Translations under genes and position numbers: made by a program
NCBI GenBank assembly: GCA_035533075.1
Contig: DATLUO010000085.1
Span: 1-32,446, forward strand
DNA from: Pirellulales bacterium
GTDB lineage: Bacteria > Planctomycetota > Planctomycetia > Pirellulales > JAICIG01
Direction: 5' to 3'
DNA: 32,446 bases
Shown here: positions 4,789 to 31,345 of the stretch, one piece after another
Layout of the letters: each line of letters begins with the position of its first letter
How positions within the stretch are numbered: position 1 is the stretch's first letter
Notes under the pieces: generated by a model
What the model saw: only the letters and a program-made list of their open reading frames with translations
Database searches by the model: none
What the model was told of the DNA's origin: nothing

Positions 4789-6858
4789 ATGATCCATGTC
4801 ATGCCGAGGTTGCTGTTGTTCCTTTCGCTGGTGCTGGTCCTTTTGGCCGGCGGCGCCCCACGTGTACTCGCGCAAATCAAACCGGCCGACGGTCTGAACG
4901 GCTGGCTGCGGGCACTCGAAAAATCGCTGCCGCGCGAAGCCGCGAAGTTTTCGGCCGAGAGCGACGCGGCGCTCGACAAGGCCGCCGATGCCGTCGAGCA
5001 GTGGGCGGCACAAATCGCCACCTTCCGAGACGCCAAGACAAGCAACCAGTTTTTCGAGGGCATCGTGCTGTTGCTCGAGGCCAAGAACCGGGCTGACCGC
5101 CTGCTCGATACGACGCTCGAACTGCGGCGGCAGTTTGCCTCGCTCGACGACACGCCTCAGCGCAACGCGTCCCTTTGCGCCTACCTGGCCGCCACCAGCC
5201 GGTTGATCGATCTTTCGGGGCGGTTGCGCTATTTGCAGGTCGACGCGGTCAACACCGCCGGCCCCAGGCTGGTCGCCCGGCCCGGCGAGCGGCTGCCGTT
5301 GCTCGACCGCTTCACGCGCGACAAAAGCTCCGTCGGCGCCTTTTTCGCCGCGCGATTTTGGATCGCCCCCGACGAACAAGGCCGCTTGCCTCGCGTCGAT
5401 CGCACCACTCGCGACCGCGTGCTGCAGTTGGCCGGCCAGGTCGACGAGCCGGCGCTGTTGCCTCTCTTGGTCCAGTCGCTCATTGCGCCTGAAGCCAGCC
5501 CGGAGTGGACGATCTCGCTGGCCGAGGCCATCCGCCGCGTCGGGTTGCCGCAGGAGCCTTGGCCCGATCCACTGGAAACACTGCCGCCGCCGCCCATCAC
5601 TCCCAGCCGTTTGCACGAGGTGCTGGCCGACATGCCGGTCTCGGCGTTGCCGGGCGACCTGGCCCGACGGCATGCCGAGCTGATCGCCTGGCTCGAAACA
5701 CTGATGCGCGACGGGCTGAGCGAGCCAAGTTACCGCATCGGAACCTTCGAGGTGCGGCCCGGCGATTTTCTGCTGATGCGCAACCCGTCGCCCTACAATC
5801 AATTCACCGACCTCTCGCCGGGGCTGTTCACGCATGTCGGCGTGGTGACGCTGGCCCGCGGCCGCGACGGCACGAACCGCATGGTGCTGGTCGATTTGCC
5901 CGAACGCGGCAATCGCATTCCGGCGGCAAACGTCGAGACCTACGTGCAGCGCAGTTTGCACTACTGTTTTTTGCGCCATCCCGATCCGCAGGTGGCCGCC
6001 GGGCTGGCCCAGGCGGCGCACGACGTGATCGGCAACGAATCACTGTTCGATCTCAACTTTCGGTTGCAGGGCATCCTGGGGCTGAAAGGCCAACCGCTGT
6101 CGGGCAAGAAAATCGAAACTTATTGCGCCGGCCTGCTGTTGCTGTGCGCTTTTCAGACGTCCGCCCCGCGCGAAGAATTCTTTCCGGTGCGCGAGCACCC
6201 GCGTGGCGGCAACACGCTGGAAAACCTGGCCAAGCTTGGCCTGTCGATGGACGACGATTTCATCTCGCCCACCGGGGCCCTCTTTTCACAGAAGCTGACG
6301 TTGGTCGGCCGTCGCGAGCCGATGTACGATCCGCGGCGCGAGGTGGAAGAGGGCGTGTTCGACCATTTCGCCTGGCTGCTGGCCAACCGTACGCTGGTGC
6401 CTTCGCCCGACTGGTTCCAGTCGCTGCGGCTGAAATTGGCCGAGGCGGCCAGCGGCAACAGCGTGCTGGCCGAGGCGCTGGCCAAGGCCGCCCGCGTCAA
6501 CGCGCAGACCGACCTGGTGTCGGCGGCCAAGGCGGCGGCGGTGATCGAAACGCTCGACGAAATCGCCTTCGGCGCCAGCGGAGAATTCCTGGATGCTTGG
6601 GACTTTTTGCACGACCTGCCGGCCGAGCAGCTTGCCCGCGAAGGAGAGCCGGCGGAAGACGTGGCCGACGCCGCCCGATTGCAGTCGCGGCACGCCGCCG
6701 TCTATCAGACCTTCCGGGCCGGCCGACTTTCGCCCCGACGGCTACGAATGGAGCTGGTAAAGTATTATACTGATTCTGGGAAACGGGAGCTGGAGCAGCG
6801 GTTTTTCACGTCTACTTCAAATTCTGGAACAGAAGCAAAAAGCGGAGAGGCACAATGA
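4789..6858 (+). CDS. Exported YiiX/NlpC-P60-like (peptidase C92-type) cysteine hydrolase
   Basis: A 689-residue protein. I start it at the ATG at 4789, 10 bp after the MoxR stop; an in-frame ATG at 4801 is an alternative. Either start leaves a strong signal peptide (LLLFLSLVLVLLAGG, cleavage near VLA-Q28). Residues about 30-310 are helical with no domain I recognise. From about residue 317 there is a permuted papain-like fold: VRPGDFLLMR, then LFTHVGVVTLAR with candidate catalytic His349, then KIETYCAGLLLLC with candidate Cys446. This is the motif order of YiiX/YebB-type NlpC/P60 relatives. Such enzymes cleave amide or ester bonds in cell-wall or lipid substrates; the substrate here is unknown. 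The stop overlaps the next ATG (ATGA). The fold is fairly likely, catalysis is inferred. Confidence 0.7.
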   Translation: MIHVMPRLLLFLSLVLVLLAGGAPRVLAQIKPADGLNGWLRALEKSLPREAAKFSAESDAALDKAADAVEQWAAQIATFRDAKTSNQFFEGIVLLLEAKNRADRLLDTTLELRRQFASLDDTPQRNASLCAYLAATSRLIDLSGRLRYLQVDAVNTAGPRLVARPGERLPLLDRFTRDKSSVGAFFAARFWIAPDEQGRLPRVDRTTRDRVLQLAGQVDEPALLPLLVQSLIAPEASPEWTISLAEAIRRVGLPQEPWPDPLETLPPPPITPSRLHEVLADMPVSALPGDLARRHAELIAWLETLMRDGLSEPSYRIGTFEVRPGDFLLMRNPSPYNQFTDLSPGLFTHVGVVTLARGRDGTNRMVLVDLPERGNRIPAANVETYVQRSLHYCFLRHPDPQVAAGLAQAAHDVIGNESLFDLNFRLQGILGLKGQPLSGKKIETYCAGLLLLCAFQTSAPREEFFPVREHPRGGNTLENLAKLGLSMDDDFISPTGALFSQKLTLVGRREPMYDPRREVEEGVFDHFAWLLANRTLVPSPDWFQSLRLKLAEAASGNSVLAEALAKAARVNAQTDLVSAAKAAAVIETLDEIAFGASGEFLDAWDFLHDLPAEQLAREGEPAEDVADAARLQSRHAAVYQTFRAGRLSPRRLRMELVKYYTDSGKRELEQRFFTSTSNSGTEAKSGEAQ

Positions 6859-7571: not shown

Positions 7572-7972
7572 GGACGCCTGGCCGCAACAAAGGGAAGCCA
7601 CGAAGAGCACAAAGACCGTAGGGCGGGACTGGCCTGCGCAAAATCGCGGCTTGCGGACCATTTGAAGTGATGCTGGTTTTGTTCCCGCCACGACGGGGCT
7701 TGCCGCTCGTCGTTCTACGCACCTCGCGCGTCAGCCGCGTAGCGGCGAGATAGTTTAGCCGTGGGGCGCAAGCCCACGGTACCGATGCGGCAGATTAGGC
7801 AAGCCGCGTAGCGGCGACAGAGGTATCGCACCACGCGCTCTGTCGCCGCTGCGCGGATCGTTGGTGTCCCTCTTTCGTGGGCTCGCGCCCACGGCTAAAC
7901 CCTGCCGTCCCTACGGGACTGAGAAACGCAACGGGGCGCGACGCGGCGGCGGAAGTTGGCGACGTCGATCAC

Positions 7973-28459: not shown

Positions 28460-28840
28460 ATGTCTACTTCCAAACGACTCGCAATCGTGCTGGGCGCGGT
28501 CTTGCTCGTGTCAGGCGGCCGCGTTTCTCACGCTCAGCCGCTGTTGCGCGAAGGCGACCACGAAGCCGAAGCGGACCACGAGGCCGGACCCGACCCCGAA
28601 GCGGTCCGCCGGCGGGCCTCAGCGCGGCAGCAGGCGGAACTGGAAGAAGAGCGGCGGTTGAAGTTGCAGCAAGAGTTGATGCGACTCCAAGGCGAGCGGA
28701 TGCTGGCGGAGCAGGAGGAAATCAAGCGGCGAGACCGCATGATGCGGTATGCGCTGCTGATCGCCGTCGCCGTGATCGCGACCACGCTCGTCGTCGCCTA
28801 TGTCCGGTCGCAGGGGGCCGAGACCAAAGAACCGCCATGA
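28460..28840 (+). CDS. Coiled-coil protein with N-terminal signal and C-terminal TM helix
   Basis: A 126-residue protein from the ATG at 28460. An N-terminal hydrophobic stretch (about 4-24, [17 protein letters not shown]) ends with SHA-Q and looks like a signal peptide. Then come an acidic His/Asp/Glu segment ([20 protein letters not shown]) and a strong Arg/Glu/Gln coiled coil (about 52-92, [20 protein letters not shown]). A C-terminal TM helix (about 97-116, [19 protein letters not shown]) ends it. It has no homology I recognise. Its stop overlaps the next gene (ATGA), so it is coupled to yjbQ, and it follows the HTTM gene by 54 bp. Confidence 0.7.
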
Positions 28841-29259
28841 AATCACTGACCGAGTATTTGACCTTCAACCTGCCCGAACGCATGGGCTTCGTGAACATCA
28901 CGCCGCAAGTGGCCGACGCCGTCCGGCGCAGCGGCGTAAGCGAGGGGCTGGTGCTGGTGAACGCCATGCACATTACGGCCAGCGTGTTCATCAACGACGA
29001 CGAGTCGGGCCTGCACGATGACTATAAGCAATGGCTGGAGCAACTCGCGCCGTTCGATGCCTCGCCGCGGCGCTACCGGCACAACCGCACGGGCGAAGAC
29101 AACGCCGACGCCCATATCAAGCGTCAGATCATGGGCCGCGAGGTCGTGGTGGCCATCACCGCCGGCAAGCTCGACTTCGGCCCCTGGGAGCAGGTTTTTT
29201 ACGGCGAGTTCGACGGCCGGCGGAATAAACGAGTGTTGCTCAAGGTGATCGGGGAGTAG
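28837..29259 (+). CDS. yjbQ: YjbQ family protein (UPF0047)
   Basis: A 140-residue protein, the usual length of the family. The conserved stretches are present: [54 protein letters not shown] and [20 protein letters not shown]. The E. coli YjbQ has weak thiamine-phosphate synthase activity; the physiological role is unsettled. The longer open frame upstream is not coding, because the ATG at 28837 coincides with the family start and overlaps the previous stop by 4 bases. The TAG stop is the first part of a gene-end repeat. Confidence 0.93.
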
Positions 29260-29352
29260 GGTGGGAGCGAGCGAGCTTGCGAGCGCCGGCCCACCATGCG
29301 CGACGTTGATCGAGGTGGGCCCGCGCTCGCAAGCTCGCTGGTCCCACCCTAC
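29256..29352. repeat. Convergent pair of gene-end repeats (copies e and f)
   Basis: Copy e (29256-29295, plus) begins GTAGGGTGGGAGCGAGCGAG; its TAG is the yjbQ stop. Copy f (29314-29352, minus) ends GTCCCACCCTAC, 3 bases from the stop of the minus-strand remnant at 29355. The two copies face each other with an 18-bp spacer, so the whole 97 bp can form a long hairpin. It would lie at the 3' end of messages from both sides. Confidence 0.88.
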
Positions 29353-29554: not shown

Positions 29555-30773
29555 GCCGCAGATGAACGGGCCACCCTCACTTGCGCCGCGCGCGGCGCAA
29601 GTGCCGGCCGTAGCCCGTTCGCTTCGCGAGAGGGAAGCCGTTTACCCCGCGCCCATGCGACACGCGTGTCGCCTCGGCGCGTGCCGCCGGAGACGAACGG
29701 GCCGCAGGCACTTCGGCCGCGCGCGGCCAAAGTGCCGACCGTAGCCCTTTCGCTGGAGCGAGAGGAAAGCCGTTTACCCCTCGCCCATGCGACACGCGTG
29801 TCGCCTCGGCGCGCGCCGCCGCAGACGAACGGGCCGCGGGCACTTTGGCTGCGCGCAGCCAAAGTGCCGACCGTAGCCCTTTCGCTGGAGCGAGAGGAAA
29901 GCCGTTTACTCCGCGCCCATGCGACACGCGTGTCGCCTCGGCGGCGTGCCGCCGGAGACGAATGGGCCGCAGGCACTTTGGCAGCACGCGGCCAAAGTGC
30001 CGACCGTAGCCCTTTCGCTGGAGCGAGAGGAAAGTCGTTTACTCCGCGACCCATGCGACACGCGTGTCGCATCGGCGCGTGCCGCCGGAGACGAACGGGC
30101 CGCCGCCACTTTGGCTGCGCGCAGCCAAAGTGCCGACCGTAGCCCTCTCGCTCCGCGAGAGGAAAGCCGTTTACTCCGCGCCCATGCGACACGCGTGTCG
30201 CCGGAGACGAACGCGCCGCAGGCACTTTGGCAGCACGCTGCCAAAGTGCCGACCGTAGCCCTTTCGCTCCGCGAGAGGAAAGCCGTCTACTCCGCGCCCA
30301 GGCGACACGCGTGTCGCCTCGGCCCGTGTCGCCGGAGACGAACGGACCGCAGGCACTTCGGCCGCGCGCGGCCAAAGTGCCGACCGTAGCCCTTTCGCTC
30401 CGCGACAGGAAAGCCGTCTACTCCGCGCCCAGGCGACACGCGTGTCGCCTCGGCGCGTGGCCGCCGGCGACTCACGGGCCGCACGCACTTTGGCCGCGCG
30501 CGGCCAAAGTGCCGACCGTAGCCCTTTCGCTCCGCGAGAGGAAAGCCGTTTACTCCGTGCCCATGCGACACGCGTGTCGCCTCGGCGCGTGCCGCCGCAG
30601 ACGAACGGGCCGCCCTCACTTTGGCCGCGCGCGGCCAAAGTGCCGACCGTAGCCCTTTCGCTCCGCGAGAGGAAAGCCGTCTACTCCGTGTCCATGCGAC
30701 ACGCGTGTCGCCTCGGCGCGTGCCGCCGCAGACTCATGGGCCGCAGGCACTTTGGCAGCACGCTGCCAAAGTG
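29555..30773. repeat. Tandem array of about 132-bp units carrying two palindromes and a hairpin
   Basis: Ten copies of a 26-bp palindrome (arm CACTTTGGCCGCG, then its complement) start at 29578, 29709, 29841, 29974, 30107, 30223, 30354, 30486, 30617 and 30748. Between them lie nine identical copies of the 16-bp palindrome GCGACACGCGTGTCGC, starting at 29657, 29789, 29921, 30055, 30186, 30302, 30433, 30565 and 30696. Spacing is 131-134 bp except for one 116-bp unit (30107-30223), which has lost the segment after GTGTCGCC. Each unit also holds CCTTTCGC-TCC-GCGAGAGG (or loop TGGA), an 8-bp stem, then GAAAGCCGTTTACTCCG. All units are in the same orientation. Because 132 is 44 codons, several frames stay open through the array; these are not genes. 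Confidence 0.92.
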
Positions 30774-31096
30774 AGCAGGATCCACGGATGACACCCCTCC
30801 AACGGATAAGTCGCAAATCCTTATCGCCAAAGCTTTTGCGCTTCCGCGACGGAATGCGTCGGCATCCGTTTCTACAATGCCGCCTTCCGGGCATTTCAAA
30901 GATGGCCAATTCGCGCCAAACGAAGCCCAGCGATGAACACCGACTTTGCGACCGTTGGCAGCCTTCGAACTCACTTGGCAGCCTTCACTGACCACAACCA
31001 AGCACGCCCCAACGAAAACAAGTCTAAGGCGTTCCCAGCGGTCTTTGGTCATGCAATGGCCTTTCTCGCCCTCGATCGGGTCCGACGAAAAAGAAC

Positions 31097-31213: not shown

Positions 31214-31345
31214 CCCGGATGATTCACCGGCCCCCGAACTTGGCGCGCAGACTGCGCGAACACCAACCCGAAGCGCAAGCGAGCTAAGTCCGTTGCTGAT
31301 CCTCGCTTGCGCTTCGGGTTGGTGTGGGCCGGTGAATAATCCGGG
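31214..31345. repeat. Compound inverted repeat with 24-bp perfect inner arms
   Basis: Outer arms CCCGGATGATTCACCGGCCC (31214-31233) and GGGCCGGTGAATAATCCGGG (31326-31345) match at 19 of 20 positions. Inner arms are perfect over 24 bp: 31260-31283 (ACACCAACCCGAAGCGCAAG, then CGAG) and 31302-31325. The loop is 18 bases. The left half carries a 26-base insert between outer and inner arms, so it is best read as two head-to-head copies of a roughly 45-bp repeat, one of them interrupted. Confidence 0.85.

Follow-up and report, generated by a model that had tools for sequence, protein, structure and literature searches.

Dispersed tandem arrays of palindromic units with GTAG-tagged hairpins, probably of REPIN/BIME type, in a Pirellulales genome

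The window, the whole stretch of DNA that was analysed (32,446 nucleotides), is one whole contig (C85) of an 8.5-Mb, 296-contig draft genome of a Pirellulales bacterium. All genome-wide counts were taken from sequence searches of this draft assembly. Towards the right end of the window lies a tandem array of palindromic units, followed by a conserved tail (Table 1). The original prediction, made from the letters of this DNA, described ten units of 132 bp, each with two palindromes (here A and B) and a hairpin (here C). The array and its ten, nine and nine copies of A, B and C were confirmed, but the unit length is variable, at 116–134 bp. TRF detects the array at 29555–30773, with a period of 131, 9.4 copies and 88% matches, and consecutive B copies are spaced 132, 132, 134, 131, 116, 131, 132 and 131 bp apart. 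It had also been stated that the array adjoins a truncated gene. A 66-codon fragment does abut the left edge, but the nearest intact upstream gene, which encodes a UPF0047 protein, is complete. The TAG of a separate inverted pair outside the array is the stop codon of this UPF0047 gene. A further inverted-pair repeat at about 31215–31345 holds ACACCAACCCGAAGCGCAAGCGAG in both orientations. A short open frame was read by eye in the tail. DUF1501 is among the gene content of the genome, which would fit a planctomycete.

Table 1. Positions in the window of the array, its components and its neighbours.
Feature	Position	Strand	Remarks
UPF0047 gene	28837–29259		nearest intact upstream gene, untruncated
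Separate REPIN-like inverted pair	29256–29352	.	outside array; begins GTAG, ends CTAC
Gene fragment, 66 codons	29355–29555	-	weak PKMT_2nd match; runs into left edge of array
Tandem array	29555–30773	+	~131-bp units: 10 A + 9 C + 9 B
Palindrome A, 26 bp	29578–29603 (first copy)	.	
Further A copies, 26 bp each	29709, 29841, 29974, 30107, 30223, 30354, 30486, 30617, 30748		
GTAG-tagged REP hairpin C	29610–29637 (first copy)	+	resembles REPs flanking C26 transposase gene
Further hairpin C copies (starts)	29741, 29873, 30006, 30139, 30255, 30386, 30518, 30649		
REPIN-like inverted pair, ~96 bp	29610–29705 (first)	.	GTAG-REP, central B, degenerate inverted REP ending GGGCCGC
Palindrome B GCGACACGCGTGTCGC, 16 bp	29657–29672 (first copy)	.	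exact matches
Further B copies (starts)	29789, 29921, 30055, 30186, 30302, 30433, 30565, 30696		
Conserved tail	30774–~30995	+	genome matches at array copies, apart from few weak fragments

Palindrome B occurs exactly nine times in the window (29657 to 30696), where shuffles expect 0.08 occurrences. Five of the ten copies of A are perfect palindromes and the rest are symmetric at 22–24 of 26 positions. Hairpin C (GTAGCCCTTTCGCTCCGCGAGAGG), which is carried by the left arm of the unit, consists of GTAG, a stem of ~8 bp and a 3-nt loop, and GTAG precedes the hairpin in all nine copies. A fourth, weaker palindrome, CGGC(G/A)CG(T/C)GCCG, is located after B. The unit has two symmetry centres, palindrome A and an imperfect inverted repeat formed by the arms around B, and the latter accounts for the ~71% minus-strand self-matches of the unit. 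The inner arms around B are inversely similar (4 of 2000 shuffles were as good), with a degenerate partner REP whose tag is GCGG. Aligned with the GTAG REP, the right arm likewise looks like a degenerate inverted copy of it. Each unit can thus be read as a REPIN of ~96 bp that has B in its middle, plus an A linker. A coding role was rejected: the period of ~131 bp is not divisible by three, and reading frames are open on both strands, as GC-rich palindromes would lead one to expect. A CRISPR was rejected, in agreement with the original prediction, as the whole 131-bp unit repeats and there are no unique spacers between the repeats.

Given its repeated hairpins, the array could be viewed as a gene for a structured non-coding RNA. 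It folds strongly on both strands (z -4.8 and -3.2), and there is some strand-asymmetric G.U pairing, but perfect palindromes fold on both strands by construction and, taken as DNA, the array folds equally well relative to shuffles. We identified no Rfam covariance model match in 29555–30995 at gathering thresholds, and a known Rfam RNA was rejected for the array. Arrays contain between 1 and 9 units and have irregular left ends, which also argues against an RNA gene; we consider this explanation very improbable.

The details of hairpin C point to the GTAG class of REP sequences. Over 48 units the G, T and G of the tag are 98–100% conserved, and the A 79%. The hairpin tolerates G.T on the + strand more often than A.C (41 cells versus 6, mostly at one base pair), a bias that folding of the GTAG strand would produce. 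Of 49 units, 46 have the dinucleotide CT 3' of the hairpin, although this carries little weight given how common CT is. When the unit was compared by BLAST with all Y1_Tnp (PF01797) loci of the genome, unit positions 55–81 matched, at 88–89% identity, four REPs at the Y1 gene at C26:22954–23181 only. Two of these REPs occur on each side of the gene, with GTAG, the stem GCTCGC/GCGAGC and the loop as in hairpin C; hairpin and REPs also have the 3' tail in common. The match covers 26–27 bp with E values of about 2e-4 to 0.009, which vary with database and settings. As a sequence match it is modest alone, and its position and the genome-wide pattern add weight. The C26 Y1 gene is a complete 245-codon frame with an HVH motif and a C-terminal tyrosine motif. 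Its protein scores above the Pfam Y1_Tnp cut-off and reaches 67 bits, versus a cut-off of 80 for the NCBIfam REP-transposase model.

The REP pattern GTAGCCCNNTNGCTCCGCNAGNGG, written after inspecting both sequences, has 140 copies in the genome, compared with 0 for the reversed control pattern. Many of these copies are arranged in +/- pairs at a distance of about 87 bp or meet in CTAC|GTAG junctions. The GC-stem form alone accounts for 112 copies, and REPs with the T(T/C)TCGC stem are, among the matches listed, almost confined to arrays. The GC-stem sister subtype flanks the C26 gene on both sides, whereas the unit's own TTTCGC subtype does not. The whole unit (A, B, tail) was found beside no Y1 gene, either by eye or by BLAST of all Y1 loci. 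Two positive controls, a Y1 gene on contig C67 between inverted pairs of another repeat and a Y1 gene at C26:19509–20291 embedded on both sides in ~62-bp tandem repeats, indicate that repeat-transposase pairs are detectable in this genome. Unlike these controls, the array has no direct REPtron that we could see. The ~62-bp tandem repeats (gggcatgccgcccgcttgccgggcggt...) around this second Y1 gene lie just up- and downstream of the open frame L057 874–1866 (contig C26).

The genome has 79 matches to the Acido-Lenti-1 'sRNA' of Rfam (RF01687), many of them as inverted pairs about 148 bp apart; two are in the window, at 7733–7779 (-) and 7875–7920 (+). The Y1 transposase gene on C67 (locus L051 1252–2170) is located between two RF01687 inverted pairs. 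This suggests that Acido-Lenti-1 represents a mobile repeat of REPIN type and not a gene for an RNA.

The array unit is present at 24 places in the genome: in the window and at 23 or more others, which range from part of one unit to about six units. Read along the unit strand, the array stops at the end of A and a common tail follows, starting with AGCAGGAT or a near variant and conserved over ~200 bases. This holds for nearly every array with an assembled right end; the C64 copy, partly aligned, enters the tail further in. In the window the shared feature thus extends past 30773 to about 30995, and two array copies share about 559 bp. The original prediction named, as an outcome that would speak against it, a common dispersed repeat that had merely duplicated here. 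The repeat is indeed dispersed, but as multi-unit arrays. Units are 88.9% identical within arrays versus 86.4% between loci, and most are nearer to units at other loci than to their own array neighbours. Units are common to different loci and are not local duplicates, and local tandem duplication was rejected on these grounds. At least six contigs end inside or within 14 bases of an array, so that copy numbers in the draft are uncertain, and an assembly artefact or purely local duplication might be suspected. Array units, however, differ from one another and resemble units at other loci, and many arrays have unique flanking sequence and are well away from contig ends, making such an origin extremely improbable.

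Genes flanking the arrays are ordinary and mutually unrelated, judging from 20 scanned flanking proteins. At 11 places the start of the array is less than 100 bp from a predicted gene; in 9 of them the gene points towards the array, an excess, though from small numbers. For the array, neither target-site duplications nor an empty site could be found. The fixed right end with its adjoining tail, the irregular left ends, and the lack of a Y1 gene flanked by the whole unit could also indicate a non-autonomous element moved by a non-REP enzyme, with the tail as one end, the array as a variable interior and the GTAG hairpin incidental. The 20 flanking proteins, however, include no other transposase or recombinase, and hairpin C has tag, loop and 3' tail in common with the C26 REPs. 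We regard this explanation as quite unlikely. At L032 (about 5936–6070) the tail contains an insertion, an unrelated repeat of ~135 bp (GTAAAGCTTCGCCGAACCCG...) that also occurs in tails at C183, C182, C148 and C6; a 9-bp duplication, CAACGGATA, flanks this repeat in C32.

The array repeats are restricted to one species among the sampled genomes. The original prediction had proposed a search of related genomes for arrays of B. Searches of ~146 other sampled genomes of the order found neither the unit nor the tail, and the only copy of B outside its own genome among these is in the sister genus. These order-level DNA searches scored five candidates per genome, so weak relatives could be missed. 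No B-B arrays were found in 84,980 species genomes or in viral contigs, sets that may omit the window's own genome. The GC-stem REP form has 0 copies in the 146 other genomes sampled, and the pattern GTAGCCCNNTNGCTCCGCNAGNGG has 0 in the sister genus. A dispersed hairpin that shares the core TTTCGCTCCGCGA does occur in the sister genus, with 5 copies in 145 kb, compared with none in random own sequence (142 kb) and none in five other genera (331 kb). Thus, the hairpin seems older than the array design.

Unusual features of these repeats are a near-invariant B common to otherwise different mosaics, an A that changes but stays palindromic, and units that loci have in common instead of local duplicates. 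In 59 unit copies, the whole unit diverges from its consensus by 8.4% and B by 1.3%; no other 16-column window of the unit is as conserved as B, of which 44 out of 51 copies are exact. There are 76 exact copies of B genome-wide and 0 of the reversed control pattern. B is also present in other palindromic mosaic repeats (L124, L075, L069, L125, L126, L128, L079), which contain different palindromes (AAAAGCGTCGCGCGCGACGCTTTT; AAAAGCGACACGCGCGTGTCGCTTTT). Palindrome A varies often yet symmetrically, with Watson-Crick pairs swapped at positions 11/32, 12/31, 14/29, 15/28 and 18/25. A genome generally rich in perfect palindromes was rejected as a cause (21 per Mb observed in random own sequence versus 38 expected). 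The near-invariance of B, its presence in other mosaics and the symmetry-keeping change of A would be accounted for by any one of binding, homogenisation and the repair of imperfect palindromes; B is probably kept constant through binding or cutting by something, or through continual homogenisation.

The original suggestion that the invariant palindrome is a protein site and the variable one a structural element is compatible with the conservation of B relative to the unit, as judged from sequence. Taken further, the arrays could be platforms for a putative sequence-specific DNA-binding protein (of chromosome-organisation or gyrase type) that recognises B as a dimer, with dispersal being secondary. 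The conservation of B, its presence in other kinds of mosaic and its high exact copy number are in line with this, but the arrays are confined to one species and the invariance of B also fits recent spread or homogenisation. We consider this reading unlikely. It is doubtful, too, that several mosaic families share B because a single species-specific protein recognises it, which would turn the arrays into a chromosome-wide binding network or a recombination site by which REPINs are strung together and swapped between loci. No positive evidence was gained for an iteron, a chromosome-organisation site or an RNA source, all of which had been listed originally.

The best reading is that the array is a REPIN/BIME of the GTAG class, unusually built, and that there is no new kind of system here. 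The BIME-type REP array among the original suggestions is supported by GTAG hairpins in inverted pairs, a REP class that flanks a Y1 gene, and dispersal beside unrelated genes. We think it probable that the array is of tandem BIME/REPIN type, with inverted pairs of GTAG REPs, a central B and A at the joints, and that array and tail together form a non-autonomous dispersed element. Points against this assignment are the 79% conservation of the A of the tag, the degenerate tag of the inverted partner, the modest match of hairpin C to the REPs, the sub-threshold NCBIfam score of the C26 protein, and the lack of a Y1 gene beside the whole unit when two other repeats do flank theirs; irregular left ends and the missing target-site duplication or empty site add to these. 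Known REP behaviour and the anatomy of the array lead us to file it as a REPIN/BIME variant, which, by analogy with experimentally studied REP systems, is probably mobilised in trans. The HUH/Y1 transposase on contig C26 (RAYT-like), or a past relative, may recognise the GTAG hairpin on one single strand and would cut nearby at CT. In this way, REPINs in single-stranded form, or whole blocks, could be inserted as copies elsewhere. Unit numbers may then change, and units be swapped between loci, through recombination or slippage of replication at the many near-identical palindromes.

The geometry of hairpin C is shared with the REPs of S. maltophilia, which have an 8-bp palindrome and a 3-nt loop (PMC8266576). 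In known REP systems the substrate is single-stranded DNA, the strand used is the one with GTAG, and cuts fall mostly at CT (PMC8266576). The GTAG REP superfamily comprises 24 published families and has been reported in the Planctomycetes-Verrucomicrobia-Chlamydiae superphylum (PMC3733652); the array has in common with it GTAG followed by a short stem-loop, and HH dimers. As in the BIMEs of Escherichia coli (PMC8266576), inverted REPs alternate in tandem, are extragenic and have GTAG on one strand. The sequences differ, however, one REP per pair is degenerate here, and no counterpart of A and B was identified in the E. coli BIMEs. Ordered tandem clusters of REPINs are already known from Pseudomonas fluorescens SBW25 (PMC3116915). 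There, as here, inverted REP pairs of ~70–110 bp lie between genes, some in tandem including flanking sequence, and Y1 transposase genes with adjacent REP clusters occur in the same genome. The largest ordered SBW25 cluster has four REPINs, whereas the window array has nine, with a palindromic linker A, a near-invariant central B and a constant tail, and its own unit is located away from the transposase. As this case shows, several repeat families that otherwise differ can have a near-invariant palindrome in common within one genome. The origin of ordered tandem REPIN arrays is an open point in the REP literature, for which a 'second mechanism' has been proposed (PMC3116915). With 24 arrays of one type that are graded in unit number, share a constant tail and have units in common between loci, this genome would allow long-read sequencing to trace how arrays grow and exchange units.
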